Below are positions 9,209 through 31,070 of a stretch of 42,335 bases of DNA, in pieces. Origin of the DNA: Bacteroidetes bacterium GWF2_35_48 (GTDB lineage Bacteria; Bacteroidota; Bacteroidia; Bacteroidales; GWF2-35-48). The position numbers and the translations under genes are program-made. Every line of letters begins with the position of its first letter. The stretch's first letter is position 1. The stretch lies in assembly GCA_001769125.1 (NCBI GenBank), contig MEOG01000132.1, forward strand, positions 75,628 through 117,962, read 5' to 3'. The notes below the pieces were generated by a model. It made no database searches and was not told the origin of the DNA. It saw nothing but the letters and a program-made list of their open reading frames with translations.

Positions 9209-9454
9209 GGGTCTGCTGAAAATCACAAAACGTATTTGATATTAAATGATTAGAATATGTTATTCTTATAACAAGTGCAAGATAAAATAAATGATTCATT
9301 AAAAATCCTTGCACCTTCTTTTTATAATTTTATATTTTTGTTTTGTTAGTCTGTCGCATACCATCTTCTTTGTTGCCTGCGACTCGAAGTATTATTATAC
9401 ATCTTCGTCTTGTCGCCTCGAATCTGGCATACGACAGACTTTTTCAGCAGACCC
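9209..9454. mobile_element. MITE-like 246-bp element with 14-bp terminal inverted repeats
   Basis: The left end GGGTCTGCTGAAAA (9209-9222) is the exact reverse complement of the right end TTTTCAGCAGACCC (9441-9454). TATTTA occurs immediately outside both ends (9203-9208 and 9455-9460), a perfect 6-bp direct repeat as expected from target duplication. Inside are two further stems: GTGCAAG (9275) with CTTGCAC (9308), and a 15-bp imperfect stem AGTCTGTCGCATACC (9348) with its mirror ending at 9440. No transposase gene is inside, so this is a non-autonomous or internally deleted insertion sequence; the IS family is not assigned. Confidence 0.82.
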
Positions 9455-15254: not shown

Positions 15255-15272
15255 TGATATTTGTTTTCATAA

Positions 15273-15304
15273 AAACCAATTCGTTGAAATTAACGAATTG
15301 GTTT
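15273..15304. terminator. Hairpin between the RAYT gene and hsdR
   Basis: AAACCAATTCGTT (15273-15285) and AACGAATTGGTTT (15292-15304) pair perfectly over 13 bp around GAAATT. The hairpin begins at the RAYT stop codon (15304-15306) and ends 18 bp before the hsdR start. No U-tract follows on the minus strand, so it may be a REP-like element recognised by the adjacent transposase rather than a true terminator. hsdR would otherwise lack a clear upstream signal. Confidence 0.55.
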
Positions 15305-15942: not shown

Positions 15943-15955
15943 TTTTTTTTAATCA

Positions 15956-16332
15956 TTAATCTCTTTTTCCCCATCAACAACACCTGTTTCGGGAGTTATA
16001 AATTATGAGTTATGAGATATGAGTTGTGCACGGTTTTCATTTCACTTTTAACTTATAACTTATAATTCATCACTCATAACTGTTAATCTCTTTTTCCCAT
16101 CAACAACACCTGTTTCGGGAGTTATAAATTATGAGTTATGAGATATGAGTTTTGCACGGTTTTCATTTCACTTTTAACTTTTAACTTATAATTCATCACT
16201 CATAACTGTTAATCTCTTTTCCCCATCAACAACACCTGTTTCGGGAGTTATAAATTATGAGTTATGAGATATGAGTTGTGCACGGTTTTTATTTCACTTT
16301 TAACTTATAACTTATAATTCATCACTCATAAC
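15956..16332. repeat. Three tandem ~126-bp copies of the hsdS 3' end
   Basis: Unit landmarks CACCTGTTTCGGG occur at 15981, 16107 and 16233, a 126-bp period. Each unit contains TTAATCTCTTTTTCCC, which on the minus strand encodes GKKRLTVMSDEL and a stop, as in the true HsdS tail at 16312-16350. The array therefore duplicates the last codons of hsdS plus following sequence. Units differ in homopolymers (T5C4, T5C3, T4C4) and single bases. Otherwise the stretch is AT-rich TTATGAG/TTATAAG repeats with no gene. Confidence 0.85.
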
Positions 16333-17610
16333 TGTTAATCTCTTTTTCCCTGTTAGTAGTTGTTGCATCAATCCCTTTTTCTGCTCCTTCAATTTTTCTG
16401 TTTTTGTTTTTAATAATTGTATTTCTTTATCTGCTGCTTGTAGTACTTTGGCAATAGCTGTTTGTTCTTTTAAAGAGTTAGGAATTATAAATGATAAGTT
16501 ATGAATTTGGGTTTTAGTCACGCTATAAACCGATGTACCAGTAGCAACCTTTCTTAAAGCATTTCTAACCGCTTCGCTTGAAAAAAAATAACCACAAAAT
16601 CTATTTGTAATAATTTCAGAATTACCTCTTAAAACAATTGTATGCAGCCCACCAACAGCAATTTTATTTTCGAGATTTACAACTTCAACTACTTCCCCAA
16701 CGCCCTCATAATCTTCTGAAGCATCAGCCATAATTATATCGCCTTCTTTCAAATAATCTTTTTCATCTATAAGTTGAGATTCATCTATAAGTTGTGGAAT
16801 TCTTTGTTGTGTGGAAAAATCTAAAAAATCATTTTCGTAAAAAGCATGTATATCTCCATAATGAATGCAATAAACCGAATTATTATTATTTAATTTTGTT
16901 AATCCTTCTCTGGAAATTGAATACGTTTTTATAAACTTAAATACATCGCCCAACTTTATAGTTTTCCACTCATCACTTATAATTCCTAACTCATCTCTCA
17001 AAAGCCTTTTCTTCCCTGTCAATAAATTTTGCATCAGCCATTTTTTTTTCAATTGACAATTGATAATTAACAATTGACAATTATTGATGGCTTTGTCCCA
17101 TGTGCTGAGTAAGCTTGTGATTAGCTTTTGCTCGGTTAGCGGTGGAAGGATACACGGCATTTTTGATAATGCATCTTTGGTTAATTTATATCTTCCAGCA
17201 CCCTGTCTTGTTAGAAAAGGGGTTAATTCTCTTTGATTAAAAAAATAAAAAAACCATTCTGTTAAATTTTCATTTCCTTTCAAAATATGAGCATGATTAT
17301 TCACATTAAATTTACCTTCCACAAGTAAAGTCATGGGTAAATCTTTCCATTTCAAAAAGTGGTCGCCATCTTCTCCTATTAAAGTGTATTTGCCATCAAC
17401 ACGATATTCGTTTATGTAGTCTTGAATTTTTGTTGGTCCATAATATGGATATTCTCCTTGTATTTTATTTCTCTCCTCTTCACTAATAGGAAATCTAAGA
17501 TTATTGCAGATATCAAAAGCTTCTCCTACCGATTTAATATTCCAATCAATGGGAATATTGCCGAGGGGAGATTTTTTATATCCCAATTTTATATTTTGTT
17601 CTTTAGTCAT
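16312..17610 (-). CDS. hsdS: Type I restriction enzyme specificity subunit (HsdS), full size
   Basis: 432 residues with the classic two-fold plan: target-recognition domain 1 (about 10-150), conserved helix 1, target-recognition domain 2 (about 210-370) and conserved helix 2. The two helices end in near-identical blocks, LMQNLLTGKKRL (about 190-201) and LMQQLLTGKKRL (about 415-426). Each is preceded by a typical LPPLTEQ or SLKEQ junction. The protein selects a bipartite DNA site for the HsdM/HsdR complex. Helix 1 contains a repeat-derived insert, NCQLLIINCQL (about 176-186). The gene follows the KilA-N gene by 141 bp of AT-rich repeats, and its 3' end is triplicated downstream. Confidence 0.95.
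   Translation of the reverse strand: MTKEQNIKLGYKKSPLGNIPIDWNIKSVGEAFDICNNLRFPISEEERNKIQGEYPYYGPTKIQDYINEYRVDGKYTLIGEDGDHFLKWKDLPMTLLVEGKFNVNNHAHILKGNENLTEWFFYFFNQRELTPFLTRQGAGRYKLTKDALSKMPCILPPLTEQKLITSLLSTWDKAINNCQLLIINCQLKKKWLMQNLLTGKKRLLRDELGIISDEWKTIKLGDVFKFIKTYSISREGLTKLNNNNSVYCIHYGDIHAFYENDFLDFSTQQRIPQLIDESQLIDEKDYLKEGDIIMADASEDYEGVGEVVEVVNLENKIAVGGLHTIVLRGNSEIITNRFCGYFFSSEAVRNALRKVATGTSVYSVTKTQIHNLSFIIPNSLKEQTAIAKVLQAADKEIQLLKTKTEKLKEQKKGLMQQLLTGKKRLTVMSDEL
17050..17086. repeat. CAATTGACAATT repeat inside hsdS
   Basis: CAATTGACAATT occurs twice, 20 bp apart, with GATAATTAA between. It is the same sequence style as intergenic repeats of this genome but is translated within HsdS conserved helix 1. 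Confidence 0.7.
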
Positions 17611-17751
17611 TATTTTTCTTTTTGGTTTATTTAGTTTTGTATCATATCGAGGATATTCTCTATATGATTTAAAGGCTCATTCTTACAATATTTACAAATT
17701 ATTTTCCCATAACTCATAACTTATAATTTATAACTCATAACTCATAATTCT

Positions 17752-18591
17752 TCACTTTTTCTTATTTAGTTTTCCAACATTTGCATTCGCTGCTAACGAT
17801 TTCAATTGAGTAATTGCAATTGCATTTAACTTTTGTAAACGAGTGGTCTGCGGTAATTCCATGCGAATAAATTCGGCATTCATACTTTCCATATTTGCCA
17901 GAACCAATAGCTGTTCAATACTGCTGTAATCACGTATGTTTCCCTCTTTTCCGGGGTTTTCCATTCGCCATTGCTGCGCTGTTTTTCCAAACATGGCTAC
18001 ATTCAGCACATCAGCTTCGCTGGCATAAATAATTTGTTGTTGTTCTTTAGTTAAATCGGGTGGAATAATATTTTCTTTTATTGCATCGGTATGAATGCGA
18101 TAGTTGATTTTTGCAAGTGTGCGGTTAAGATTCCATGCCAGAGACAGGCGTTGGTTTTCGTCATCTTTTAATCGTTGAAATTCTACTATCAAATACATCT
18201 TGAATTCAGCGCTGACCCAGGAAGCAAACTCAAAAGCAATATCACGGTGAGCAAAGGTTCCGCCATATCTTCCTGTTTTAGAAATGATACCAATAGCATT
18301 GGTAGCTTCAATCCATCTTTTGGGTGTTAATGAAAAACTATTTGAACCTGCCATATTTTTAATTCCATCGAATTCGATGGAATTAAAATGCGGGTTTTTC
18401 AACTGTTCCCAAAGTCCAATAAACTCAATAGTGCTACGGTTTCTAAGCCAGTTTTGCAGAATATAGTCGCTTCGTTCAGAATCTCTGTGCCTTGCAATAT
18501 CTGTGATAGAAATATAGTCATCTTGATTTTGACTGACAATGTTCACCGATAAGCCCTGAACATGTATTATAGATTTAATTTCTTTGATCAT
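17752..18591 (-). CDS. KilA-N domain DNA-binding protein
   Basis: 279 residues. The KilA-N core spans about 20-140: YISITDIARHRD, NWLRNRSTIEFIGLWEQL, LTPKRWIEATNAIGI, GGTFAHRDIAFEFASWVS and FKMYLIVEFQRLKDDE. This domain, known from phage and large DNA viruses, binds nucleic acid. The C-terminal part (about 150-270; EADVLNVAMFGKTAQQWR, NIRDYSSIEQLLVLANMES) is a conserved companion region seen in restriction-island versions. It lies between hsdM and hsdS, where such genes are frequently found, and may regulate the operon or modulate HsdS. No catalytic motif is visible. A 32-bp palindrome lies within the gene. Confidence 0.88.
   Translation of the reverse strand: MIKEIKSIIHVQGLSVNIVSQNQDDYISITDIARHRDSERSDYILQNWLRNRSTIEFIGLWEQLKNPHFNSIEFDGIKNMAGSNSFSLTPKRWIEATNAIGIISKTGRYGGTFAHRDIAFEFASWVSAEFKMYLIVEFQRLKDDENQRLSLAWNLNRTLAKINYRIHTDAIKENIIPPDLTKEQQQIIYASEADVLNVAMFGKTAQQWRMENPGKEGNIRDYSSIEQLLVLANMESMNAEFIRMELPQTTRLQKLNAIAITQLKSLAANANVGKLNKKK
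18357..18388. repeat. Perfect 32-bp palindrome within the KilA-N gene
   Basis: The left arm TTTTAATTCCATCGAA is followed directly by its exact reverse complement, with no loop. It is translated as FNSIEFDGIKN within an otherwise continuous domain. The centre carries CGAATTCG. Confidence 0.9.
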
Positions 18592-18783
18592 GGTTTTTGA
18601 TTTTTAGACATTGTTTTTCTTTTGGTTTTTGGATTAATTTGTTTTGTTTGTCTTTTATTTTTTATCTACTTTTGTGTCGCAGTCCTGGTAATTTCTCTCC
18701 CGAATGTATCTGTCGGTGATGAAGCTAGGTTTTTTTGTTTTATAGCATTTATGCTCAATTATAAATTTTAAAACATTCAAAGT

Positions 18784-20472
18784 TCAAGACATTAATTCTT
18801 TTAAATATTTGCCCATCTCAGCTTGCACTGTTACTAATTCTTTTTCAAGTTTATCAATTTCTTTCTGAACCGCAGCAATATCAACCTCAGCTTCTTCTTC
18901 AAAAGTATCAACATAGCGAGGAATGTTCAGGTTAAATTCATTTTCCTGTATCTCTTCAAAAGTTGCTACATAGCTGAATTTATCAATTGAAAATTGTGAA
19001 TTGAAAATTGATAATGAAAATTCGCCCTGTTCATCATTTGACCAAACTCCATCTTTTATTTTAATTTTTCCATCTTTCAATATTGTTTTCCCTTTTTCTA
19101 CTATCAATTGTCCATTTTCAACTGCCCATTGTCCATTAAAAAGTTTATACGTTGCAACAATATGTTTTATATCGTCTTCGCGCAGCCTGTTCTGATTTTT
19201 AGCAGATTCGTAATGCTTGCTTGCATCAATAAACAACACATTTTTGTTGTCAATTTTTCCTCTGTTAAAAATTAAAATTGCAGCAGGAATACCTGTACCA
19301 AAAAACAAATTAGCAGGCAATCCTATCACAGCTTCCAGAATATTTTCTTCAATGGTTTTCTGCCGGATTTTTCCTTCGCTTGCTCCACGGAACAAAACCC
19401 CATGAGGCACTACCACGCCAACTTTTCCTTTGCCTTCATAGGTGGTTTCTATCATGTGCGAAATAAAAGCCCAATCGCCTTTACTCTTAGGTGGTGTCCC
19501 TCTCCAAAAACGATTGTATTTATCGGTTTCCGGGTCAAAACTATCCGCAGCTTTATTCTCTTCCTTATCATCGCTCTTGCCCCATTTATCAAGGGAAAAC
19601 GGAGGATTGGCAACCACAGTATCAAACTTCATCAGCGCATCACCTTCTTTCAGTTTTGGATTTCTGATTGTATCACCCCAACGAATAGTGGCATTATCAA
19701 AACCATGTAAAAACATGTTCATCACAGCCAAAGCCCAAGTACTACCGTTGGCTTCCTGACCATATAAAGAGAAATTATCTGAGCCAACTTCTTCCCCTGC
19801 TTTAATTAAAAGCGAAGCTGAGCCACAGGTGGGATCACATATTCGTGAGCCGGGTTTCGATTTTGTTAGTTTGGCAATGAGTGTGGAAACTTCTTTGGGT
19901 GTGAAAAATTCACCGGCTTTTTTTCCGGCATCGCTGGCAAAATTTTCTATCAGAAACATATATGCACCGCCGATAATATCAGTACCTTCAAGGTGCGAGG
20001 GTCTAAGGTCTAGGGTTTCTTTATTAAAGTCAAGTAACAGGTTTTTCAAACGAGTATTTTTATCTTTTGTATCGCCCAGCACACTGCTGTTAAAATTGAT
20101 ATTCTGGAAAATCCCTGCACCATCTTCGCTGTAGAGCTTTTCACGATTAGCCTCTACCAAATCTTCTAAAGCAATATCAATCAGTTCTCCAATATTGAGT
20201 TCATTGCGGTGTTCATATAAATATTTGAAATGACTGTGTTCCGGAACAACAAATCGTTCGTGTTTCATAGCCCTGTCGGCTCTTTCCTTATCGTTATTAT
20301 ACTTTGCCAGATGCGTTTCATACTTATCATCATGCACATCGCTTAGGTATTTTACGAATAGCATAGTAAGCACATAGTCCTTATAAATACTTGGGTCTAT
20401 GCTTCCACGAAAAGTATCGCAGGCTTTCCAAACGGCATCGTTAATGTCTTTTTGAGTAATCTTTTTTATCAT
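18784..20472 (-). CDS. hsdM: Type I DNA methyltransferase subunit (HsdM)
   Basis: 562 residues. The N-terminal helical domain (DAVWKACDTFRGSIDPSIYKDYVLTMLF) precedes the N6-adenine methyltransferase core. EFFTPKEVSTLIAKL and DPTCGSASLLIKAG (about 214) bind S-adenosylmethionine, and VANPPFSLDKW (about 291) is the catalytic NPPF motif IV. It methylates the host site to protect it. Residues about 441-497 (LFNGQWAVENGQL ... SLSIFNSQFSIDK) look inserted between YKLF and FSYVATFEEIQENEFNLNIPRYVD, which is the conserved C-terminal block. Their DNA is built of ATTGTCCATT and AATTGAAAATTG repeats. The start lies 1 bp after the stop of the upstream half-HsdS gene (TAATATG). Confidence 0.97.
   Translation of the reverse strand: MIKKITQKDINDAVWKACDTFRGSIDPSIYKDYVLTMLFVKYLSDVHDDKYETHLAKYNNDKERADRAMKHERFVVPEHSHFKYLYEHRNELNIGELIDIALEDLVEANREKLYSEDGAGIFQNINFNSSVLGDTKDKNTRLKNLLLDFNKETLDLRPSHLEGTDIIGGAYMFLIENFASDAGKKAGEFFTPKEVSTLIAKLTKSKPGSRICDPTCGSASLLIKAGEEVGSDNFSLYGQEANGSTWALAVMNMFLHGFDNATIRWGDTIRNPKLKEGDALMKFDTVVANPPFSLDKWGKSDDKEENKAADSFDPETDKYNRFWRGTPPKSKGDWAFISHMIETTYEGKGKVGVVVPHGVLFRGASEGKIRQKTIEENILEAVIGLPANLFFGTGIPAAILIFNRGKIDNKNVLFIDASKHYESAKNQNRLREDDIKHIVATYKLFNGQWAVENGQLIVEKGKTILKDGKIKIKDGVWSNDEQGEFSLSIFNSQFSIDKFSYVATFEEIQENEFNLNIPRYVDTFEEEAEVDIAAVQKEIDKLEKELVTVQAEMGKYLKELMS
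18978..19142. repeat. In-frame repeat clusters within hsdM
   Basis: AATTGAAAATTG-type repeats at 18978-19022 and ATTGTCCATT-type repeats at 19106-19142 flank a short Lys/Asp-rich stretch. Both resemble intergenic simple repeats of Bacteroidota yet are translated, adding about 55 residues to HsdM. Confidence 0.65.
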
Positions 20473-20473
20473 A

Positions 20474-21046
20474 TTATATTTGATTTAACGCATTTAAAAG
20501 TTGTTGTTGGAGTATTTTATCTCTTAATAATATCAATTGGTCTTGAAGCTCCTTCTCCCTGTATTTTAGCTTATCAATTTTCAGAACATTTTTTTGAGTT
20601 TGAATATCTATGATTGGAATTTCTAAATATTTTAAAACTTCTTTTGATATGGAAACCATAGATGTTCCGATAGCATTAGCTTTGAGATAATTTTGTGAAA
20701 CAGGGTGATTGATGTACCATGTAAGGAATTCCGGTAAAATATCTTTAGCTTCTGTGTTTTTTATCCGGATAACAAAAAATGATGTTGATGCCACGAGAGG
20801 CAAATGATCGAATAAAATACAAGTTGCAAAATTTTTTGTGCCTTTTGCTGCAAACAAAACATCTCCTTGATGAAGCAAATGTTTTTCAATGGTACTGTTG
20901 TAAGTCAAATTCGGATGAAGACGTACATTCAACCTCCCATTTTCATCAAAATGTTTCGCCTGTAAATAAACAACATCCCCCTCGGAGATAGTATTTATAT
21001 AAAGCCCGGTTTGAATTTCTGCAATATTTTTTAAAAAGGTTCTCAA
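20474..21046 (-). CDS. Half-size HsdS-like specificity subunit (single target-recognition domain)
   Basis: 190 residues, about half an HsdS. There is one target-recognition domain (about 1-140; IAEIQTGLYI, LHQGDVLFAAKGTKN, LPEFLTWYINHP, GTSMVSISKEVLKYLEIPI) followed by one coiled-coil helix (KLKYREKELQDQLILLRDKILQQQLL). Half subunits can dimerise to recreate a symmetric HsdS. The start is TTG at 21046; an in-frame stop two codons upstream and no early ATG make this the only reasonable start. It is the first gene of the operon, 16 nt from the predicted transcription start, and is coupled to hsdM. Together with the full HsdS it gives the system two specificity proteins. Confidence 0.88.
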   Translation of the reverse strand: MRTFLKNIAEIQTGLYINTISEGDVVYLQAKHFDENGRLNVRLHPNLTYNSTIEKHLLHQGDVLFAAKGTKNFATCILFDHLPLVASTSFFVIRIKNTEAKDILPEFLTWYINHPVSQNYLKANAIGTSMVSISKEVLKYLEIPIIDIQTQKNVLKIDKLKYREKELQDQLILLRDKILQQQLLNALNQI

Positions 21047-21124
21047 AATTTTCTAAGTAATTTTTCTACAAAGACAATGCTTTTATTTTATTTGACAAAT
21101 TTTCTCAAGTAATTTTTCTACAAA
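21046..21124. repeat. 27-bp direct repeat flanking the operon promoter
   Basis: AAATTTTCTAAGTAATTTTT (21046 onward, through CTACAAA at 21072) recurs at 21097-21124 as the same sequence with one extra C. One copy covers the start codon, leader and part of the -7 box, and the other overlaps and extends upstream of the -33 box. Confidence 0.8.
21069..21099 (-). promoter_or_regulatory. Promoter of the restriction-modification operon
   Basis: On the minus strand TTTG (21099-21096), exactly 19 bp, then TGTCTTTG (21076-21069) matches TTTG-N19-TAnnTTTG with one change. Transcription would begin near 21062, giving a leader of about 16 nt to the TTG start of the half-HsdS gene. Confidence 0.6.
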
Positions 21125-21417
21125 TTTTTTAATTATTAATAAAAAACTACCTTTTACCAATTATTTTACTTTGTAAAATTATGGGTAAGATATTGAAAAT
21201 TATTGCACTAAATTGAATTTTCATTGCAGAAGCAATTCATTTTGCGTTGTTTAAGTCAAATTCATTATCTTATTATTATGAATAAACAGATTATTTCGTC
21301 AATACAATATGTGTTACGTTGCATCTTGATACAAGTAATTGCGCTTATATTATCTTTTTTTATAAATAAAAAATTGTATGGAAGTACAACTAAATGCAAT
21401 GGAATGCAGATTTTTTT

Positions 21418-21444
21418 GTCTGGGTGGAGCTACGAGAAGAAAAA
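21418..21444 (+). repeat. Right attachment site (attR) of the island
   Basis: A second copy of the tRNA-Arg 3' segment (GTCTGGGTGGAGCTAC..AGAAGAAAAA), 26/27 identical to 10867-10893. Nothing upstream of it folds as a tRNA, as expected for the displaced end. The 21125-21417 stretch has no supported gene. Confidence 0.85.
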
Positions 21445-21450
21445 TAAAAG

Positions 21451-21481
21451 TTTCCAGATTTTAAAATAAACTATATATTTG
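21451..21481 (+). promoter_or_regulatory. Promoter of tRNA-Ala
   Basis: TTTC, 19 bp, then TATATTTG: one mismatch to TTTG-N19-TAnnTTTG. The -7 box ends 12 bp before the tRNA. It lies entirely outside the island's right junction, so island excision would leave it intact. Confidence 0.6.
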
Positions 21482-21493
21482 GAAACTCAAACC

Positions 21494-21567
21494 GGGGGGT
21501 TAGCTCAGTTGGCTAGAGCGACAGGCTGGCAGTCTGTAGGTCATCGGTTCGATCCCGATACTCTCCA
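21494..21567 (+). tRNA. tRNA-Ala (anticodon GGC)
   Basis: The acceptor GGGGGGT/ACTCTCC contains the G3-U70 pair that identifies alanine tRNAs. The D stem is GCTC/GAGC. The anticodon stem ACAGG/TCTGT carries the loop CTGGCAG, giving anticodon GGC. The T arm is ATCGG-TTCGATC-CCGAT and the discriminator is A. CCA is not encoded (CTA follows). Confidence 0.93.
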
Positions 21568-21572
21568 CTAGG

Positions 21573-21610
21573 AAACGGATAGATTGAAAAGTCATTCCGT
21601 TTTTTATTTT
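21573..21610 (+). terminator. Terminator after tRNA-Ala, shared with the facing gene
   Basis: AAACGGA (21573-21579) pairs with TCCGTTT (21596-21602), followed by TTTTATTTT. It overlaps the stop codon of the convergent gene ending at 21604. Confidence 0.7.
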
Positions 21611-21882
21611 AGTTTTTCAATGTTTTTGAGAATTTGATGGAGTGCTTTATGAAATTCTTTCATTAGAGGCGACTCACCAAAAAACATGTCGTCAACATCA
21701 GCTTCATCATATTCAAACATTTCATTTATCAATTGTTTTGATTTTTTGATGAAGTCTTTTTCATCTTTACAATCGTAGGATAAAAGACCAAATTGTAAGG
21801 TCAGGTTGAGATCAAACTTTTCTGCCTCAATCATAATTGCTTTGTAGGTTTTGTCCGTTAAATCGTCTGTGTCCATTGGCAT
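21604..21882 (-). CDS. Small acidic conserved protein of unknown function
   Basis: 92 residues, acidic and helical, with no signal peptide. Recognisable blocks are DLTDKTYKAIMIEAEKFDLNLTLQFGLLSYDC, LINEMFEYDEADVDDMFFGE and FHKALHQILKNIEKL. I recall similar unnamed proteins in other Bacteroidota but know no function. The start is ATG at 21882 (MPMDTDD), or equally the second ATG at 21876. It lies just outside the island, convergent with tRNA-Ala and divergent from the fibre operon. Confidence 0.75.
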   Translation of the reverse strand: MPMDTDDLTDKTYKAIMIEAEKFDLNLTLQFGLLSYDCKDEKDFIKKSKQLINEMFEYDEADVDDMFFGESPLMKEFHKALHQILKNIEKLK

Positions 21883-22057
21883 AATTATAAAAAATTATAA
21901 AGAAAAAAATGAAAATGAAAGCGACCTCCATATTAGTTTCAGACCAGCCTTCGTTTGGGGGAATATACTGGCTGTAACTAGTATATTTATAAATACCAAA
22001 ATATTAACTTACAGATTTAAGGTTATACTTATTCTTTTTAAATTACTGTCTATTATT

Positions 22058-22088
22058 TTTGGTGGTATTATATGTTTTTTTATTTTTG
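22058..22088 (+). promoter_or_regulatory. Consensus promoter of the fibre operon
   Basis: TTTG (22058-22061), exactly 19 bp, then TATTTTTG (22081-22088) is a perfect match to the Bacteroidota vegetative promoter. Transcription would start near 22095, which supports ATG at 22114 and rules out the upstream in-frame ATG at 22072. Confidence 0.75.
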
Positions 22089-22113
22089 TGAAAACCCGTT
22101 ATTATTATTTTTC

Positions 22114-23496
22114 ATGAAACCCTTATTTTTGGTTTTATTTATAATTATGTTTCTATTTTCTTTGACGACTTTTTGTCAGAATGTAGGCATAGGTGTAACA
22201 ACTCCTTTGGAAAAACTTGAGATTAACGGAAACCTAAAAATAAGCGATGAGATTGTGCCATCAACCGCTATAACACTTAATGGGCTTTCAAATTCTTATC
22301 TGACACTCACAAATGCTGACGGGTATATCAGTCTGACCCCAATTAATTCAGGTTGGGCGCACATTTATTCTGACAAATCAAAGTTTTTTTTAGCAAAACC
22401 TTTTTGGTTACAAACAGGCATATTGAGTGCGTATAATATCTCTAATTTAATATTACAGACAAACGGGACTACCCGTATGACTGTTTTGGCAACAAATGGC
22501 TACACCGGTATTGGAGAAACAAATCCTTCTTACATGCTTGATGTCAGCGAAGATGTTTTATTTAGAGGGAATGATATTTTTGGTTCTGGCAGTTTGATTT
22601 TTCAGGGAGCCGGAGGAGGTTACGTTGAAACAAAATCGAACAGTTCTAGTTGGGGACTTGTAGTAAGAGAATACAACAGTTCCGATTATGGAAACATTGA
22701 AGTTGATGCTAATGGATTTAACCTAGGATATCTTACCAGTGATGCTCATATTACAATTAATTTTAGCGGAAATGTAGGAATAGGAACTGTTTCTCCTACC
22801 TCAAAACTCCATGTTTCTGGCGATATCCGTTTAACAAGCGATCTTCTTTTTGGTAATAGCAACAACAGAACGCAAACAAAAGAGGATGCAGGCGCTTTTG
22901 GCGGGCGAAGTGGGTTTTATGAAACTTCCTCTGCAACTGCTGGTGAAAACTGGCCTGTTGGTTCTTCAAACTATTGGCATCTCGTTGATTGCCGCCATAC
23001 AAACACTACGAATAATTATTCATTACAATTAGCAGGTTCTTTTAATGATCAAAAACTTTATTACAGAACAACACAAGACAATGCGGCTGCAGCATGGTAT
23101 CAGGTTTTGACTTCACCCAGAACAACTTTTAACAGAACCAGTACAACCGTATTTTATGTTGACGAATATATTCAATTCCGATGGGAGTCGGGTAGCAGTG
23201 ATTTACAGTTTTCACCCGTGAATACAGGAGTTTGGTGTGTATTGGGTTATTATGAGTCGTGCCAGTTGTCAGGCATTCAAAATGCGCCACATTCCGAAGC
23301 TGACGACTATTCAGGTACAGCTGGTAGCTGGACATCAATTTATGAAGACTCCTCATGGGGAAATAGTGGGTGGAATGCACTTAATGGAACATTTTATTTT
23401 TCAAAACAAAACGAGAGTTCTTTCCCCACTTATGAGATAAAGTTCATTATTCATAATTCTAAATTAACAAGTGTTGTTAGAAGATTTGATCCATGA
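22114..23496 (+). CDS. Secreted tail-fibre-like protein 1 (GIG repeats, knob-like domain)
   Basis: 460 residues from ATG 22114. A signal peptide (1-22, ending in TTFCQ) is followed by three NVGIG-type motifs: about 23-43 (NVGIGVTTPLEKLEINGNL), 131-150 (TGIGETNPSYMLDVSEDV) and 221-240 (VGIGTVSPTSKLHVSGDI). Such motifs recur in trimeric, beta-helical tail fibres and in Bacteroidota surface proteins. Residues about 265-332 (GRSGFYETSS ... WHLVDCRHTN ... KLYYRTTQDNAAAAWYQV) resemble the knob of pyocin and phage fibres. The last 125 residues form a unique tip with several Trp and Cys. No T9SS tail is visible. It is first in a four-gene operon, and its stop overlaps the next start (ATGA). Function is inferred: binding or adhesion. 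Confidence 0.72.
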   Translation: MKPLFLVLFIIMFLFSLTTFCQNVGIGVTTPLEKLEINGNLKISDEIVPSTAITLNGLSNSYLTLTNADGYISLTPINSGWAHIYSDKSKFFLAKPFWLQTGILSAYNISNLILQTNGTTRMTVLATNGYTGIGETNPSYMLDVSEDVLFRGNDIFGSGSLIFQGAGGGYVETKSNSSSWGLVVREYNSSDYGNIEVDANGFNLGYLTSDAHITINFSGNVGIGTVSPTSKLHVSGDIRLTSDLLFGNSNNRTQTKEDAGAFGGRSGFYETSSATAGENWPVGSSNYWHLVDCRHTNTTNNYSLQLAGSFNDQKLYYRTTQDNAAAAWYQVLTSPRTTFNRTSTTVFYVDEYIQFRWESGSSDLQFSPVNTGVWCVLGYYESCQLSGIQNAPHSEADDYSGTAGSWTSIYEDSSWGNSGWNALNGTFYFSKQNESSFPTYEIKFIIHNSKLTSVVRRFDP

Positions 23497-24914
23497 GTAA
23501 AGGAATTTTTAATAGCGTTTTATTAAAGTTTGCCTTTGTTAAGGGCTTAGTACTGCTTTATACGTTTTCCTTTAGTCAAAATATTGGTATTGGCACTAGT
23601 GCCCCTGCTGAAAAACTTGAAGTTGTTGGAAACATCAAAGTGGTTGATCAGCTTTTTACTCCTACAGGGCTGACATTTGGCGGAGCGACCAACACTGGTC
23701 TCAAGTTTTCGCACTCCAATGGCTTTTTGTCTTTAACTCCTTTAAGTTCCGACTGGCTTTATGTGAATACCGACAGAGGTCAGTATATTTTTAATAAACC
23801 GATTTGGCTTGATGATGGTTCAATTAATTCGTATGGAACAACAGATTTGATTTTGCAAACAAACGGAACAAACAGAATTGCTTTTCTTAATTCTAATGGT
23901 AATGTAGGAATAGGCACTTCCACTCCATCAAAAATTTTAGATATTAATGGAAATTTAAGAGTACAGGGAAACGATATCTGGGGATCGGGAAGCCTTGTGT
24001 TAAATGGAGCTGGTGGTGGTTATGTGGAAATGAAGTCGAATAGCTCAACTTATGGATTAATTGTAAGGGAATATAACAGTAGTAACTGGGGAAATGTTGA
24101 AGTTGATGCAAATGGACTGAATTTTGGTTTTCTGAACGATGCATCGCATTTACTGATAAAGTCTGACGGAAATGTTGGAATTGGAAATACAACAGCCACC
24201 TATAAACTTGAAGTTTCTGGCGATGTCTTGCTTACTGGCGATTTATTATTTGGAAATAGTGATACACGAACACAAACAAAGGAAGATGCAGGCGCTTATG
24301 GCGGAAGAAGCGGTTTTTATGAAACAAGCACTGCAACAGTGGCTGAAAACTGGCCTTTTACTGCAAATACTGACTGGTGGCATTTATTAGATTGTCGGCA
24401 TAGTAATTCTGGGAACAATTATTCGCTCCAATTGGTTGGTTCTTTTTTTGATCAAAAATTGTTTTACCGCAAAACAAATACATCTTCTGCAACAAATGCA
24501 ACTACTCCTTGGAGACAGGTTATGACAACAAACATCCCCTGGACATATACAAAAAACACTTTTGCTTACAACACAGATGCTGTTTTTTATGAAGATGAAT
24601 ATATTTATTTACGATATAATTATGATTGTGAGCTTGAGATACAGGCAAAATCAGGAGCAGAAGGTACGTGGCACTGGTCTGGTCTTGTTGAAGAATCGTA
24701 CGAAGGAACAAGCGCAAGTTCAATGACCTACGAGTTGTCTGTATCGGTTGGCAGTTGGACAACCATCTCTTCTGTTTGGTGTGGATCTGATTTTGGAATA
24801 GGAATAGAATTTATACTGACAAAAAAAGACAGTGATGCTTTTCCTTTATATATCGGGACATTTATTATGCATGGTGATTACAATACAGCTATTGTCGAAA
24901 GAATTAACCCTTAG
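23493..24914 (+). CDS. Secreted tail-fibre-like protein 2
   Basis: 473 residues, a paralogue of the preceding gene. The signal peptide is residues 1-28 (GLVLLYTFSFSQ). GIG motifs are NIGIGTSAPAEKLEVVGNI, NVGIGTSTPSKILDINGNL and NVGIGNTTATYKLEVSGDV. The block from GGGYVEMKSNSS to KLEVSGDV is almost the same as in protein 3 and close to protein 1. A knob-like part follows (GRSGFYETSTATVAENW, WWHLLDCRHSN, KLFYRKTN, PWRQVM). The C-terminal tip of about 130 residues (DEYIYLRYNYDCELEIQ ... IVERINP) differs strongly from its neighbours. The start overlaps the previous stop by ATGA, and the next gene starts directly after its TAG. Function inferred from fold only. Confidence 0.72.
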   Translation: MSKGIFNSVLLKFAFVKGLVLLYTFSFSQNIGIGTSAPAEKLEVVGNIKVVDQLFTPTGLTFGGATNTGLKFSHSNGFLSLTPLSSDWLYVNTDRGQYIFNKPIWLDDGSINSYGTTDLILQTNGTNRIAFLNSNGNVGIGTSTPSKILDINGNLRVQGNDIWGSGSLVLNGAGGGYVEMKSNSSTYGLIVREYNSSNWGNVEVDANGLNFGFLNDASHLLIKSDGNVGIGNTTATYKLEVSGDVLLTGDLLFGNSDTRTQTKEDAGAYGGRSGFYETSTATVAENWPFTANTDWWHLLDCRHSNSGNNYSLQLVGSFFDQKLFYRKTNTSSATNATTPWRQVMTTNIPWTYTKNTFAYNTDAVFYEDEYIYLRYNYDCELEIQAKSGAEGTWHWSGLVEESYEGTSASSMTYELSVSVGSWTTISSVWCGSDFGIGIEFILTKKDSDAFPLYIGTFIMHGDYNTAIVERINP

Positions 24915-26315
24915 ATGAAGTTTTATATTTATATAGTATTATTTTTTGTATTAGTTCAGTGGACTATGGCACAAAATGTTGGCTTTGGAACGCTTACTCC
25001 GGGGGAAAAACTCGAAGTAAGTGGCAAGGTTAAACTTAATGATAACGTTATGTCTGCTTTACAATTAACTTTCGACGGAGGTACCAGTAATGCCCTGAAA
25101 ATACAAAATTCTGCCGGTTTTGTAACATTTACACCTCTTAGCTCAGGATGGGCACATATAAGCACAAGTCTGGCAAAACTAATTTTTAATGTTCCTGTTT
25201 ATGAGGTTTCCGGAACCTTCAGTTCATGGAATTCTTCAAATTTATCTTTTACTACTAATGGCACTACCCGAATGACAATTCTTAACTCTAATGGTAATAC
25301 AGGTATTGGCGTTATAAATCCTACCTTTAAACTTGATGTTAACGAGGATGTTCTTGTTCAAGGGAATAATGTATATGGCACAGGGAGTCTTGTTTTGCAT
25401 GGTGATGGTGGTGGCTTCGTTGAAGCAAAATCAAACAGTTCAACATATGGTTTAATTATCCGTGAATACAACAGCTCTGATTGGGGCAATATTGAGGTTG
25501 ATGCCAATGGATTAAATTTCGGATATCTGAATGATGCTTCTCACCTCCTCATAAAATCAGATGGAAATGTTGGGATTGGCAATACGACTGCGAATTATAA
25601 ACTTGAAGTAACTGGCGATGTTAGAATGAGCGGAGATCTTGCTTTTGGGTACGATGCATCCTACAATTCTCACACACGTACACAAACCAGACAAAATGCA
25701 GGCGCAATGGGTGGGCGTAGCGGGTTTTATCAAACAAGCGACCCGACACCTTACTCTGCAAACTGGCCTGCAGGCGCTGGTAGCTGGTGGCATTTGATTG
25801 ATGTAAGACATAGCAATACAGGGAATAATTATGCAATGCAGTTTGCTGCTTCTTTCTGGGGTACAGATTTATATTTTAGAAAAACAAATAATTCTGCATC
25901 TCAAGCTTGGTCAAGGGTTAAAACTATCGCAGAGAACCCAAGACCATACTCCAGAACTACCTTTACCAGTACCTCAACAACAACTGTATATACAGACTCT
26001 TATATTTCGATTCGATACAATAATTCAAATGCTTATATCGAATTTCAGCCAAAATCAGGACATACGGGCTGGTGGGATTGTTTTTCAATAAGCGAAGGAA
26101 CTGAAAGCGGTACAAGCCCTGAATCTGTAGCGATAGATATTAATGCATCATCAACTTCATCGTGGTATACTTTAAACGATGTGGACGCATCAACACGAAA
26201 CGGCCCGGGTGCATCTATTTGGCTCGCTAAAGAAAGTTCAAATGCTTACTCTGTATATCATATAATATTACTTGAACATGGAACATATTCAACCGTAATA
26301 GTTGAAGTTAAATAA
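24915..26315 (+). CDS. Secreted tail-fibre-like protein 3
   Basis: 466 residues, third paralogue. The signal peptide is residues 1-20 (LVQWTMAQ). GIG motifs are NVGFGTLTPGEKLEVSGKV, TGIGVINPTFKLDVNEDV and NVGIGNTTANYKLEVTGDV. The knob-like region reads GRSGFYQTSDPTP, WWHLIDVRHSN, DLYFRKTNNSASQAWSRV. The final 130 residues (SYISIRYNNSNAYIEFQPKSGHTGWWD ... IVEVK) form another distinct tip. The ATG follows the TAG of gene 2 with no gap. The conserved shaft with changing tips suggests duplication followed by diversification of binding specificity. Confidence 0.72.
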   Translation: MKFYIYIVLFFVLVQWTMAQNVGFGTLTPGEKLEVSGKVKLNDNVMSALQLTFDGGTSNALKIQNSAGFVTFTPLSSGWAHISTSLAKLIFNVPVYEVSGTFSSWNSSNLSFTTNGTTRMTILNSNGNTGIGVINPTFKLDVNEDVLVQGNNVYGTGSLVLHGDGGGFVEAKSNSSTYGLIIREYNSSDWGNIEVDANGLNFGYLNDASHLLIKSDGNVGIGNTTANYKLEVTGDVRMSGDLAFGYDASYNSHTRTQTRQNAGAMGGRSGFYQTSDPTPYSANWPAGAGSWWHLIDVRHSNTGNNYAMQFAASFWGTDLYFRKTNNSASQAWSRVKTIAENPRPYSRTTFTSTSTTTVYTDSYISIRYNNSNAYIEFQPKSGHTGWWDCFSISEGTESGTSPESVAIDINASSTSSWYTLNDVDASTRNGPGASIWLAKESSNAYSVYHIILLEHGTYSTVIVEVK

Positions 26316-26322
26316 AAAAAAC

Positions 26323-28308
26323 GTGAGAAAAATAGTGACCATATTTTTAATTTTTTCTTTGCTGATTACAAAATACAGTACCGGACAGTTAGTAAATAAT
26401 GGAGGTGTAATTATGATCCAGTCAGGTGCAGATGTTTATATCACTGGTGGAGGAACTTCTTTTACAAATCAAAGCAATGGAGGAAGCTATGGCACCGTTC
26501 ATAGTTATGGCAATATTTTTTTAGACGGACACTGGGTTAATGAAACACAGACCTTAAACTCTGCGAATGCCACTTTTAATGCAGGATCAGGAACTGTAAA
26601 ATTTAACGGGACTTCTTCTTGTAATTTAAATTCAGGCGGCTATGCTTTTTTTAATTTAATTATTGACAACACCGCAGGAGTCACACTGACAACAAATAGT
26701 TGCCGCGTAGATAAAGCGGCTACATTAACAAATGGTATAATCAATACTGGGTCTAATGTCTTTTCGGTTGAAGACTATAGCACAACCTCCCTTTCTGGAT
26801 TTAATACATCAAATTATATAAATGGCAATCTAAGTCGAAGAGTTACTACAGGATATGCATCTGAGGAATTTGCATCTTTGTTATATACAACAAGCAGTAC
26901 AACCACAAATACAACAAAAGGGTCAATAATAAATGTTACTTCTACGAGTAATGATCCAATGATTAACATGCAAACAGTTTTAAGCGGTTTTCCATACAAT
27001 CCTGCTGTTTATAAATTTGTTGAAGTACGATACCGTGTGCTATCTGGAACAGCTGGCAGTATGGAGCTTTTTTGGTGTACCGCAGCAAGACCGTGGGCAG
27101 ACGGTGGTTACAGGGCTGTTGTGGGTTTAATAAGTGATGGAAACTGGCACAATACCATTGTTGACCTTCATAGTTTTTGGACGCTGACATCTGATGGATC
27201 TGGTAATGTTCCTGTTATTGGATTTAGATACGACTGGTGTACTACAGACGGAGTAACAATGGATATTGATTATTTAAAAATTACAGGTTCGCCTACTGAT
27301 GAGTATGATTTTCCTGTTGGCACATCTTCTCAATATGAATTAGCAAAAATTAAAATTAATTCATCTACAGGCATTACACACATTAACTCTAATTTTGTTG
27401 CTTTTAACCCTCCGACAATACCTTATGGCAATATACAATCTGGTCTGAGTGTTAATGGAACGCCAATTACAACAATACTTGATTATGGTTATTGGAATTT
27501 TTATCCAAATACAGGAGGCACAGCCACGAGCTACGACGAATCACTAACCTCCAGTGGGCAAACCAATGGAGGATCTTCTGCCGATCAGCATACGGTTGTG
27601 AAAAGGGCTGATGCGTCTTCTGACTGGATATGTTCAGGAACACACGATAATGCTACACAAAGTGGCACGAGCACAAATCCTATTACCGCAAAAAGATCCT
27701 CTGTGAATGGTTTTTCACATCATGCTATTGGACGTTCTGATCTTATTACTTTGCCAGTTTCTTTGGTCTCTTTTAAAGGGAAATGTGAGCAAAATTTTAT
27801 CCTTATTAATTGGATAACATCTTCTGAAACGAATAATGATTATTTTGAAATAGAAAAAAGTGAAGATTTATATTCCTGGCATCTTTTAACAGTGGTAAAT
27901 GGCGCTGGAAATTCAAATGAGTTAAACTATTATCAGATAACAGACGTTTTTTCTGAACAAACATTATACTACAGGCTAAAACAAGTGGATTATAATGGTC
28001 AATATTTTTATTCTGACATTATTGCTGTTATATGCAACAACACACCCTCAAGTCCTTTTTATCTGCAACAGACAAATTTTGGAATTAATGATAATGAAAC
28101 AGAACTTTTTTTAAACCTAACTAAAGAAACATATTTAATGATTGAATTATACAATTGTTTAGGACAAAAACTTTATCATAGCAATGTTCATGTGTTTTCA
28201 GGAAACCAAAATATTCTTATAAATTATAATCCTGTAGCAAAGGGTATGTACATATTGGTAATACATGATAAATATTATTCACAAACCTATAAAATTATTA
28301 GGCATTAG
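26323..28308 (+). CDS. T9SS-sorted surface protein with sugar-binding-like module
   Basis: 661 residues from GTG 26323. No ATG is available; the alternative TTG at 26302 would overlap the previous gene by 14 bp and add KLNKKN. The signal peptide ends near KYSTGQ. Residues about 30-185 are a beta-rich repeat region (NNGGVIMIQSGADVYITGGGTSF, FNAGSGTVKFNG). About 186-322 form a jelly-roll-like module with many aromatics (FVEVRYRVLSG, MELFWCTAARPW, GFRYDWCTTDGVTMDIDYLKI), resembling carbohydrate-binding domains. The region VSFKGKCEQNFILINWITSSETNNDYFEIEKS followed by YRLKQVDYNGQYFYSDI precedes the C-terminal sorting domain (MIELYNCLGQKLY ... KGMYILVIHDKYYSQTYKIIRH). It is the last gene of the fibre operon and the only one with a T9SS tail. 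Confidence 0.78.
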   Translation: MRKIVTIFLIFSLLITKYSTGQLVNNGGVIMIQSGADVYITGGGTSFTNQSNGGSYGTVHSYGNIFLDGHWVNETQTLNSANATFNAGSGTVKFNGTSSCNLNSGGYAFFNLIIDNTAGVTLTTNSCRVDKAATLTNGIINTGSNVFSVEDYSTTSLSGFNTSNYINGNLSRRVTTGYASEEFASLLYTTSSTTTNTTKGSIINVTSTSNDPMINMQTVLSGFPYNPAVYKFVEVRYRVLSGTAGSMELFWCTAARPWADGGYRAVVGLISDGNWHNTIVDLHSFWTLTSDGSGNVPVIGFRYDWCTTDGVTMDIDYLKITGSPTDEYDFPVGTSSQYELAKIKINSSTGITHINSNFVAFNPPTIPYGNIQSGLSVNGTPITTILDYGYWNFYPNTGGTATSYDESLTSSGQTNGGSSADQHTVVKRADASSDWICSGTHDNATQSGTSTNPITAKRSSVNGFSHHAIGRSDLITLPVSLVSFKGKCEQNFILINWITSSETNNDYFEIEKSEDLYSWHLLTVVNGAGNSNELNYYQITDVFSEQTLYYRLKQVDYNGQYFYSDIIAVICNNTPSSPFYLQQTNFGINDNETELFLNLTKETYLMIELYNCLGQKLYHSNVHVFSGNQNILINYNPVAKGMYILVIHDKYYSQTYKIIRH

Positions 28309-28454
28309 TAATTAAATATAGATAAATCATTATTCCTTTTTATTCATAAATAATACTATTGATTTCGGTTGAAATATCCGCAATCATATTTTTCTCCACC
28401 ATCGCCTCTCTCAATACCTGATAATTTCCTTAAAATAATTCCTTCCCTATAACC

Positions 28455-31070
28455 TTATTTCTCCTCCGATTTATCAATCTCTCCCTCACTTTCCTCGTCC
28501 CATTTTATTTTAACTTTGTTTTGTTTTTTCTTCTTTTCTTCTTCTTCTTTCTTTTTCTTAAAATTGATTAATGATGTATCATTTTTAAACAAGCCGAATT
28601 CTTCTTTTAATATAGACTTGATTGTTTTCTTTTCATCTTTTACAGCTTCTTTAATACTCTCTTTTACTTTTCGCGTATCATAGCGAATCGAGAAATTATC
28701 GGTGGTTCCGCTTATCACAAGATAAATATTTGTTTTGCCACGATCATCTTCTTCTATGGGTCCAAACTCTTCTTTCTCTTTTTTCTTTGATTTTATTTTT
28801 TTGGATAGAATATCTGAAAGTAAAATTTTTACCCTGTAATCAACACGTGAGTCGAAAGTTTGCTCACCCAATAAGCTTAGATTTAATGCAGAACTGTTAA
28901 TGTCCATCTGGGGAATAATAATTTTTTCATCCTTAATTAAAATATCATTTTTTAATTCAGAAAACCGGATGTTTTTTAATTCATTAATATCTACAAACTG
29001 CGCCATTTTTTCTAAAGGTTTAAAATCAATCAGCTCTCCGTTGTTTATCGTAACATTTGATGCAACAATTAATTTTTTTGTATTACAAACCAGAGCGTTT
29101 GTCCATTCAGAGGCAATAGTAATATCTGATGAAACAAAACCCCTTAAATGCTTATCTGTAATAAAGTCCTGACCAAAATTATTAAACGAAATAAACAGTT
29201 TCTGTATATTAATTTTTGATAGTTTTATTTTTGAATGAATGGAAAAATTTCCATCGTTTTCTTGCGTAATAACACCCGAAGATTCGATAGATCCTTCCAT
29301 CGTTTTAAAATGAATATCCTCTGCATTAAGCTTTCTGTTTTTGTACAATAATTTTCCTTTAACATCTGTTGCCTGAAAGTCTGAAAAAATAAAATTTTTA
29401 ATATCTGTACTTACATAAAATTCCATATTATCGGGCAATGCAATTATAAATTCTGATTTGTTCTGATCGCTTTTACCTGCTAACAATTCATTCATATTCA
29501 AATTAGCACATGTAACCTCGCCGTCAACTAAAAAATGCTGATCGGGTACCATAAAATAGGAGATAATATTTTTAAGAGCTCCTTTAATTGAAAAATCATT
29601 ATTCCCGGCATAAAAAGAAAGCGAATTAATATCAAGATCATTATTATTAAAAGCAAAAATACCATTGATGCCCGTGTATTTATTTCTCCCTTCTTTCAAA
29701 GAAAAAGAAGCATTTTCTAAAATCAGATTTCCACTTATTTTAGAATTCATAAAATCATTTTTTGTAAAATTTGAAGGATCTTTTATCCTGCCGGAAAAAT
29801 TAAAATTTGATTTAATTATGCCATCAATTTCACGAATCGTATCTACTTTAAAGAACTGCTGCAATTCTGATAACTGCGCATCAACTTCTGCATTAATTTC
29901 GACATGGGGAAATTCAGGATTTTTCATGAAAAAACTACCTGAAATATTGCTTTTACCCACAGTAAATTTTAAGCGATCAAGTAGCAATGTAGTTGTAGTA
30001 ATCGAATTATTTTCACCATTGGAATAAAGTCCTGTAAGGCTTACATTTTTAAGTTTAATCGAAGCATTTTTCTTTGAAATACTTGCATTTTTCATTCCGA
30101 ATTTGGTTTCGATATGAACAAAGCTGCTACTGTCAATTGCTCCTGACACATTTGCTTCAAAATATAATTCACCTTCGCTTTGATACTCTTTTTTATACGC
30201 ATCAAATTTCTCGGGCAACAGAGACAGGAAGGACTGTATGTCTATATCATTCCCTTTTATCTGTAAATTTATGATGTTCTTTTTTCCGGTTTGAATAGTC
30301 CCGGTAACATTCAACGATAAATCTTCAACATCAATACTTCCATTCTTTATTTCAAACAAATTATTTTTGACCTTCATAGTAAGATTTACAGCAAGACCCG
30401 ATGCATTGACATAATTTACATTATCAATTACAATGCAATCTGCAAAAAGTTCTCCGGCAGTTGACAGGGAGTAGTCATCAGAAGAAAAATCTCCGTTTAG
30501 CACAAAATTTCTTGAGTGAATCCTCAGGTCGGTATGCAGCGCATTATCTATATAAAAAACTTGTACATTATTTAATGTTATTTTTTTAAGACAAAGCTGA
30601 AATTTTGATGTATCTGTAGGATGCGAAGATTCCCAAAAATGATAATTTTCTTTTCCACGGCTGTTTGTAAGCAGATACATTCGTCCTTTTTCAATAATAA
30701 TTTTTTTGATTTTATATCTTTCATAATAAATATCAATAATGTTGAATTGCAGAAATAAACTTTGAGCAGAAAATAATGTATCTTTAAAAGAGCCCTTGAA
30801 TTCTGAACGATTAAAGCCCTTGGTTGGTTTTGCATAAACGTCCTGAAATTCTACAGAAGCATCGGGGAAATGCTTAAACACGGAAAAATTTACTTTACCG
30901 ACCTTTATTTCGGTCTTTAGATTTTTATTGATTTCCGAAATGATAAATTTTGAAATTTCGTTTCCATAAAAATTCGCAATGATAAATCCCGCTGCAAAAA
31001 AAAGAAGAATAAGCCCACCTGTTACAGATGAAGCAATAATAGCTATTTTTTTTATTTTCTTTTTTTGCAT
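28455..31070 (-). CDS. AsmA-family envelope protein
   Basis: 871 residues from ATG 31070. One N-terminal membrane helix (IAIIASSVTGGLILLFFAAGFIIANF) anchors it, followed by SEINKNLKTEIKVGKVNFSVFKHFPDASVEFQDVYA, the AsmA N-terminal signature. The long body is built of short beta strands, as in AsmA/TamB-like bridge proteins that shape outer-membrane lipid and protein content. The C-terminus is strongly charged (KKKKEEEEKKKKQ ... ESEGEIDKSEEK). An ATG nine codons earlier (31097) would lie at the predicted transcription start (TATTTTTG, minus strand, 31110-31103), so I prefer 31070. Convergent with the T9SS gene ending at 28308; the 146-bp gap between them shows no clear terminator. Confidence 0.87.
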   Translation of the reverse strand: MQKKKIKKIAIIASSVTGGLILLFFAAGFIIANFYGNEISKFIISEINKNLKTEIKVGKVNFSVFKHFPDASVEFQDVYAKPTKGFNRSEFKGSFKDTLFSAQSLFLQFNIIDIYYERYKIKKIIIEKGRMYLLTNSRGKENYHFWESSHPTDTSKFQLCLKKITLNNVQVFYIDNALHTDLRIHSRNFVLNGDFSSDDYSLSTAGELFADCIVIDNVNYVNASGLAVNLTMKVKNNLFEIKNGSIDVEDLSLNVTGTIQTGKKNIINLQIKGNDIDIQSFLSLLPEKFDAYKKEYQSEGELYFEANVSGAIDSSSFVHIETKFGMKNASISKKNASIKLKNVSLTGLYSNGENNSITTTTLLLDRLKFTVGKSNISGSFFMKNPEFPHVEINAEVDAQLSELQQFFKVDTIREIDGIIKSNFNFSGRIKDPSNFTKNDFMNSKISGNLILENASFSLKEGRNKYTGINGIFAFNNNDLDINSLSFYAGNNDFSIKGALKNIISYFMVPDQHFLVDGEVTCANLNMNELLAGKSDQNKSEFIIALPDNMEFYVSTDIKNFIFSDFQATDVKGKLLYKNRKLNAEDIHFKTMEGSIESSGVITQENDGNFSIHSKIKLSKINIQKLFISFNNFGQDFITDKHLRGFVSSDITIASEWTNALVCNTKKLIVASNVTINNGELIDFKPLEKMAQFVDINELKNIRFSELKNDILIKDEKIIIPQMDINSSALNLSLLGEQTFDSRVDYRVKILLSDILSKKIKSKKKEKEEFGPIEEDDRGKTNIYLVISGTTDNFSIRYDTRKVKESIKEAVKDEKKTIKSILKEEFGLFKNDTSLINFKKKKEEEEKKKKQNKVKIKWDEESEGEIDKSEEK

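Follow-up and report, generated by a model that had tools for sequence, protein, structure and literature searches.

A conserved operon of three phage-like fibre proteins and a type IX-sorted partner, a probable surface-recognition fibre set in Bacteroidota

The closest described relatives of the fibre proteins reported here are the mosaic adhesive trimers (MATs) of Bdellovibrio bacteriovorus. In PMC10769870, MATs are presented as exported trimeric β-shafts that carry a loop motif and a diversified tip and are displayed on the predator surface, and one of them binds prey glycans. Two further described systems share parts with our locus, namely the tail fibres of phages and the type A cargo proteins of the type IX secretion system (T9SS). 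The locus lies in a window of 42,335 nucleotides (the whole stretch of DNA that was analysed; contig MEOG01000132.1, positions 75,628 to 117,962 of the forward strand, assembly GCA_001769125.1) from Bacteroidetes bacterium GWF2_35_48, and comprises three tandem fibre genes followed by a gene for a T9SS-sorted protein. Its features are given below in window coordinates.

22114..23496, + strand: fibre gene 1, 460 aa; mature start Q22; shaft 22-247, knob about 250-334, tip about 335-460
23493..24914, + strand: fibre gene 2, 473 aa; mature start Q29; shaft 29-254, knob 257-346, tip 347-473
24915..26315, + strand: fibre gene 3, 466 aa; mature start Q20; shaft 20-245, knob about 253-339, tip about 340-466
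26302..28308, + strand: gene 4, T9SS type A cargo, 668 aa, TTG start
22058..22088, + strand: promoter match, Bacteroidota form TTTG-N19-TATTTTTG, 25 bases 5' of the gene 1 start codon
24261..24530, + strand: knob domain of gene 2, with cyanophage S-TIM sequence matches
24531..24911, + strand: tip domain of gene 2, predicted Ig-like β-sandwich
26863..27306, + strand: gene 4 module, about residues 188-335, with blastp matches in loci L256 and L257
28105..28302, + strand: gene 4 T9SS sorting domain, residues 602-667, TIGR04183

An earlier note on this DNA, made from the sequence without database searches, had described three tandem secreted paralogues and a fourth gene. This is borne out by four open reading frames (ORFs) on the + strand, of which genes 1 to 3 are 45-51% identical in pairwise comparison. 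The note had further proposed a search for the three-plus-one arrangement elsewhere, and the same four genes were indeed found again, in the same order, in a Bacteroidetes metagenome-assembled genome (MAG) that belongs to another family of the same order (JAHJDW010000163.1; this genome is called G027 below, and that of the window G000). Orthologue identity over aligned residues is 71, 76, 73 and 62% for genes 1 to 4, four-fold synonymous sites are 26-37% identical, which is saturation, and the non-synonymous divergence (dN) is 0.18-0.34. Because the proteins are conserved while the four-fold sites are saturated, the four-gene unit is old and under purifying selection. The flanks differ in G027, where, judged by eye, one side of the operon has a sigma factor and the other has metallopeptidase-like genes. 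Its junctions consist of a 4-base overlap between genes 1 and 2, no gap between genes 2 and 3, and one shared base between genes 3 and 4. For the window, the ATGA or zero-gap packing of the earlier note holds at junctions 1/2 (ATGA) and 2/3 (zero gap) and fails at junction 3/4, where the genes overlap by 14 bases and the start codon of gene 4 is TTG.

The operon is conserved and rare. In searches that scored no more than three or four candidates per genome, the full-length trio was found in 2 of 393 genomes of the order, with partial relatives in three more, and gene 4 was found at full length in the same two genomes, adjacent to the trio in both. The co-occurrence of the four genes therefore holds in 2/2 genomes with a full-length trio, while the trio itself is rare; the rare co-occurrence that the earlier note had named as a refutation is thus not what is seen. 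The class sample gave a match in 21 of 395 genomes, and the phylum sample in 6 of 395; both counts include G000, the only genome to hold the trio in either sample, and the other five matches in the phylum sample are partial. No fibre match was found in G001, the other genome of the genus, which is 90% complete.

By sequence, the products of genes 1 to 3 share a shaft and a knob and differ in their tips. Delimited as the stretch from the mature Q to a motif ending in FG or YG, the shaft is 226 residues long in all six fibres of the window and G027, without a gap, and is 52-61% identical between paralogues. The number of gap openings between paralogues is 2-4 in the knob, 2-8 in the tips and none in the shaft; the gene 3 product of the window has a 5-residue insertion directly after the shaft that the other five proteins lack. 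Shaft and knob are 51-63% identical between paralogues. The tips are 67-78% identical between orthologues and only 23-33% between paralogues, and we therefore see three different tips, each kept in its own position. The signal peptides claimed by the earlier note are visible by eye in all fibres, with Q at +1 in 6/6 proteins, and genes 1, 3 and 4 pass a crude hydrophobicity filter (gene 1 when read from an upstream start at 22072), which gene 2 fails. The GIG-repeat shafts that it described exist as 2, 3 and 2 GIG loops per fibre, so that the repeat is a short one; the loop motif V-G-..-P-X-X-X-L has 2, 3 and 2 loose matches and 2, 1 and 1 strict matches in genes 1, 2 and 3, and the first loop begins 2 residues past the mature N-terminus.

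The tip of gene 2 was modelled with block-mean predicted local distance difference test (pLDDT) values of 78-92 for residues 351-400 and 49-85 for residues 401-473. Its best VIA-align match was CsgC (Z 7.5, root-mean-square deviation (rmsd) 2.8, 85 aligned), and many folds like those of immunoglobulin (Ig) and fibronectin type III domains followed at Z 5-7. The predicted fold is thus a common Ig-like arrangement that is uninformative on function. The knob of gene 2 is 43-47% identical over 74-75 aa to five cyanophage S-TIM records, and its low-confidence model aligns with phage K gp144 (5m9f; Z 5.5, rmsd 3.1, 72 aligned). A search of the knob against PDB sequences gave nothing at E 10, and no knob family was among the fibre matches in Pfam, PHROG and NCBIfam. 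The VIA-align list contains no named pyocin-knob structure, which excludes nothing.

A profile built from the six fibres was compared to all PDB sequences at E-values up to 1, and gave four distinct matches, all of them Bdellovibrio MAT fibres: 8OND/Bd2133 (1.3e-8), 8OJN/Bd3182 (5.7e-5), 8OL4/Bd2439 (1.1e-4) and 8OML/Bd1334 (1.3e-3). The data section of PMC10769870 assigns these entries to the MAT fibres Bd2133, Bd3182, Bd2439 and Bd1334. The top PDB match in Foldseek was also 8OND, at E 1.7e-4; the TM-scores are meaningless here because the shaft of the gene 2 model is poor. Going by PMC10769870, the window fibres have in common with MATs the signal peptide, the phage-like β-shaft with V-G-..-P-X-X-X-L loops, the diversified C-terminal tip and the occurrence of several paralogues per genome. 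They differ from MATs in being shorter (460-473 aa compared to typically ~1,000), in having a knob between shaft and tip, in being encoded by three co-translated genes with a T9SS-sorted partner gene, and in their Bacteroidota host. The earlier note had called this a plausible undescribed system, which is too strong a term, given that the kind is already published as MAT fibres. In the open-licence papers searched, a scope that does not extend to the supplements of PMC10769870 on MATs of other strains, we found neither the three-plus-one layout nor a link between such fibres and a T9SS partner.

The T9SS tail that the earlier note saw in the fourth gene is confirmed by TIGR04183, which scores 28.4 bits against a cut-off of 23; the corresponding score for Pfam PF18962 is 19.5 bits, below its cut-off of 27. 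A sorting domain and a signal peptide are what gene 4 has in common with T9SS type A cargo. Both G000 and G027 have SprA_N over cut-off, and each holds at least 150 sorting-domain matches. The model of gene 4, made from two sequences, has a mean pLDDT of 39.8 and reaches a block-mean of 75-80 only in residues 601-640. The module at about residues 188-335 has blastp matches in L256 (43%) and L257 (35%), both in secreted-looking proteins located away from fibres. This module, which the earlier note had described as sugar-binding-like, matched nothing in Pfam, NCBIfam or PDB.

The association of fibre genes with genes for a T9SS C-terminal domain (CTD) was assessed in three sets of Bacteroidota loci. 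The CTD model was built from four window proteins and extended on the loci, where it matched 51 of 1182 tails and no reversed tails. The first set comprises the 35 Bacteroidota-titled loci among 79 genome-contig loci, 31 of which hold a fibre ORF by the criterion used; it excludes L045 and L067, which both have a CTD neighbour but carry titles other than Bacteroidota. The second set comprises 15 loci from the genome search plus the window, and the third comprises 20 further loci from the class and phylum samples, assessed with the CTD model frozen and with three class-sample places left out. Some genomes contribute two loci. ORFs from these loci served as background genes unless they were fibre or CTD genes or lay inside a fibre run.

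Across all sets, a CTD gene lies in the same co-directional run at 25 of 66 fibre loci, compared to 24 of 400 background genes. The values are 14/31 versus 4/176 for set 1, whose loci are not all independent since L092/L093 and L043/L057 look closely related; 6/16 versus 14/105 for set 2 (p 0.026); and 5/19 versus 6/119 for set 3 (p 0.008 when counted by loci, 0.02 when counted by fibres). The last of these is given without L237, which was set aside since its CTD gene is itself a fibre, and with which the count is 6/20. For those background genes that have a crude signal peptide, the counts with a CTD gene in the run are 1/73, 5/46 and 3/57 in sets 1 to 3. An immediate CTD neighbour is present for 11/35, 4/19 and 4/26 fibres (3/24 without L237 in set 3), and for 3/176, 7/105 and 2/119 background genes. 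Six partner candidates were compared to TIGR04183, with four scoring above the cut-off and L226 and L228 below it; L228 lies outside the counts. Fibres with a CTD of their own are almost absent (0/54 and 1/26). In short, the link between fibres and T9SS-CTD genes is real but partial.

G000 also holds a second cluster (L269, G000:C120, 742-14918), in which three T9SS-CTD genes share the strand of two tandem fibre-like ORFs (528 and 690 aa). In three loci (L226:4971-5429, L230:11620-12156 and L235:3768-4256), a secreted-looking protein of only 152-178 aa is encoded near fibres, with a similar tail, G.ALE....KIR..I.Y, by eye; the L226 protein has a weak match to the phage cement protein family PF09956 (E 0.005, under cut-off).

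From these data, we consider it probable that the operon encodes a surface-recognition fibre set of three specificities, with the T9SS-displayed product of gene 4 as a partner. Judging from the signal peptides, all four proteins would be exported by Sec, and the sorting domain suggests that the T9SS would then carry gene 4 across the outer membrane to the cell surface. Each fibre would be an exported, presumably trimeric β-fibre of phage-tail type, consisting of the common shaft, the common knob and its own tip, and the gene 4 product would act as the fibre partner, most likely helping to expose or hold the fibres at the surface. Each of the three tips may bind a target of its own, probably a glycan or a surface protein of another cell or particle, which would give three binding specificities comparable to those of the Bdellovibrio MAT fibres for prey. 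The strong conservation across a long divergence suggests fixed targets or partners rather than an arms race. A cell-surface fibre set for adhesion or recognition was also what the earlier note had proposed, and the homology to MATs, the conservation of the four genes and the lack of phage and contractile-particle genes in the places searched support it. MAT-type fibres are known as a predator's prey-recognition kit, and the compact, conserved trio with its T9SS partner, along with the recurrent if partial pairing of such fibres with T9SS-sorted proteins, points to another lineage that uses phage-like fibres as cell-surface receptors.

Several observations weigh against such a fibre set with a T9SS-displayed partner. 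The ~130-residue domain that PMC10769870 gives after the signal peptide for all 21 Bdellovibrio MATs is absent from the trio, and because of this absence we liken the fibres to MATs in the way they work but do not count them among the MATs. Of the 46 Bacteroidota fibre ORFs that have both a complete start and a loop, 9 have their first loop at residue 113-150, and several of these open, by eye, with a sequence like AQNVxINxTGxxPDAS; a QNVxINxTGxxPDAS-like opening is common to the fibres of L221, L222, L223 and L226 (by eye). This opening perhaps corresponds to the N-terminal MAT domain missing from the window trio. Seven loci have an early first loop, and three of these have a CTD partner, so there is no link between the partner and the loss of the N-terminal domain. 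The model of gene 2 is poor (mean pLDDT 47.6, below 50 in the shaft), and the fold of the shaft is thus argued from sequence. Fibres 1 to 3, unlike type A cargo, have no sorting domain at E 1 in Pfam and NCBIfam, and the home-made CTD model was likewise negative. Both genomes are very rich in T9SS genes, which makes a CTD neighbour by chance likelier, and the excess of immediate neighbours in set 2 was not significant (4/19 versus 7/105, p 0.06). Finally, gene 4-like proteins are mostly located elsewhere than beside fibres: among 11 other such loci picked, a single one (L258) adjoins a fibre.

An account that we regard as rather unlikely is that the fibres are independent homotrimers that reach the surface or the medium by their own route, with gene 4 merely co-transcribed. 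Bdellovibrio is not known to have a T9SS. Its MAT fibres are displayed on the cell surface, according to PMC10769870, and 41 of the 66 Bacteroidota fibre loci have no separate T9SS-CTD gene in the run. What speaks for a functional partner instead is that both genomes still have gene 4 although synonymous divergence is saturated and the flanks are not the same, and that T9SS-CTD neighbours are enriched beside fibre genes. A different arrangement of the chains, which we hold to be unlikely, is a single heterotrimer with common shaft and knob, three heads, and equal amounts of each chain ensured by translational coupling. The precedent is complement C1q, in which three paralogous chains have a common shaft and different heads; the likeness applies to this arrangement only, and the sequences are unrelated. 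The gap-free shaft in 6/6 proteins would suit it, particularly when compared to other homologous shafts (best stretch of at least 120 columns at 35% identity or more, n=39), which show 3.9 gap openings per 100 columns, as would the close junctions, the coupled translation and the identical gene order in both genomes. However, those controls mostly have lower identity, and of the two above 50%, one has 0 gaps in 124 columns and the other 3 in 141. The insertion after the shaft of gene 3 also fits poorly, and the paralogue shafts are no more alike within than across genomes (difference -0.004, 95% confidence interval -0.016 to 0.008), so that no co-evolution of the chains is seen, with two genomes to compare. 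Phage fibres are generally symmetric trimers of one chain. The MAT fibres solved so far are also symmetric single-chain trimers, as stated in PMC10769870.

The two ideas can be combined into an anchor-less, MAT-like heterotrimer with three heads that is carried or anchored by the T9SS-sorted partner encoded by the last gene, and this we regard as improbable. If true, a heterotrimer with a T9SS partner would give proteins that lack a sorting domain a way to use the type IX system, and the heterotrimer would be a bacterial C1q-like recognition molecule, within a two-part fibre display system of Bacteroidota. The preferred fibre set with its displayed partner raises a testable question, namely how proteins that lack a T9SS sorting domain come to the surface, and whether they are taken there by a sorted partner.

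A further reading takes the operon as a prophage or tailocin remnant, or as the source of the fibres of an extracellular contractile injection system. All three genes match the PHROG tail-fibre family phrog_9942 (gene 1 4.1e-11, gene 2 5.7e-17, gene 3 4e-10), there is similarity to fibres in five records of cyanophages and two of Thermus phages, and viral contigs hold 120 confirmed relatives with a best E of 5e-13. What is shared with phage tail fibres (phrog_9942; the cyanophage S-TIM5 fibre) is the sequence of shaft and knob, and the best 80 of the 120 viral relatives stop by residue 335 of gene 1, excluding the tip. Unlike phage fibres, the window proteins have a signal peptide (by eye), lie near no virion genes, and in the case of gene 2 end in a tip for which phages gave no match at E 0.1. 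The 20 further window ORFs scanned, one of which holds a KilA-N domain, gave no hit to a capsid, tail, lysis or integrase family, and G000 gave no match to the contractile sheath family PF04984, for which the control was positive in 3 of 14 genomes. A phage or contractile-particle origin is thus very improbable and was rejected, since there are no phage genes among the window ORFs scanned, no sheath match in G000 and no phage match at E 0.1 for the gene 2 tip; this supports the view of the earlier note that the operon is not a prophage remnant. Plasmids gave one matching record, in the knob region only. As a separate observation, G027:C307:16344-16580 has a weak phage-sheath match of 24.4 bits, under the cut-off of 31.4.

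Whether horizontal transfer carried the unit into both lineages, making it a mobile accessory trait of the cell surface, is evenly balanced. The full-length trio is absent from G001 and from 391 of the 393 genomes of the order, the flanks differ between G000 and G027, and the fibres (71-76%) are at least as alike as CysS (69%) and the best AsmA match (33%), the reference identities between these two genomes. On the other hand, loss across many lineages gives an equal pattern, base composition and the G+C content of third codon positions (GC3) are ordinary, and the four-fold sites are saturated. A recent transfer was rejected on these grounds of composition and saturation. No gene conversion was detected among the paralogues. 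We also observe blocks of the same shaft sequence, 46-54% identical, in L035, L036 and L037, which are contigs labelled as Paceibacterota, Planctomycetota and Fibrobacter MAGs, and which reflect either module exchange across phyla or misbinning.

The promoter described as perfect by the earlier note does not live up to that word. The match is to TTTG-N19-TATTTTTG, which we take to be the Bacteroidota promoter consensus. This pattern has four matches on the + strand and none on the - strand of the whole window; when the 231-base spacer is resampled by a first-order Markov model, 1.35% of the resamples contain it. In G027, the sequence upstream of the operon has no match of the Bacteroidota type, even in a looser TTG form. 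In the window, matches of the E. coli type are at chance level in 21000-29500 (32 found versus 35.0 expected). Direct repeats inside the operon reflect paralogy only.

The operon is flanked on its left by a tRNA-Ala gene and a type I restriction system, and on its right by an AsmA-like gene that was named by eye and has no Pfam match. The tRNA-Ala gene, at 21494-21568 between the restriction system and the fibre operon, is a putative insertion point. The restriction system (12027-21046) comprises hsdR, hsdS and hsdM; the KilA-N gene separates hsdS from hsdM, and hsdM is also adjoined by a second, short piece (190 aa) that resembles hsdS. In the CysS ORF, 59 N-terminal codons (9138-9314, - strand) are unmatched in relatives, and parts of this stretch, 27-49 residues long, are found again at 12 further sites in the genome with 76-97% identity, which indicates that a dispersed repeat lies directly upstream of cysS.

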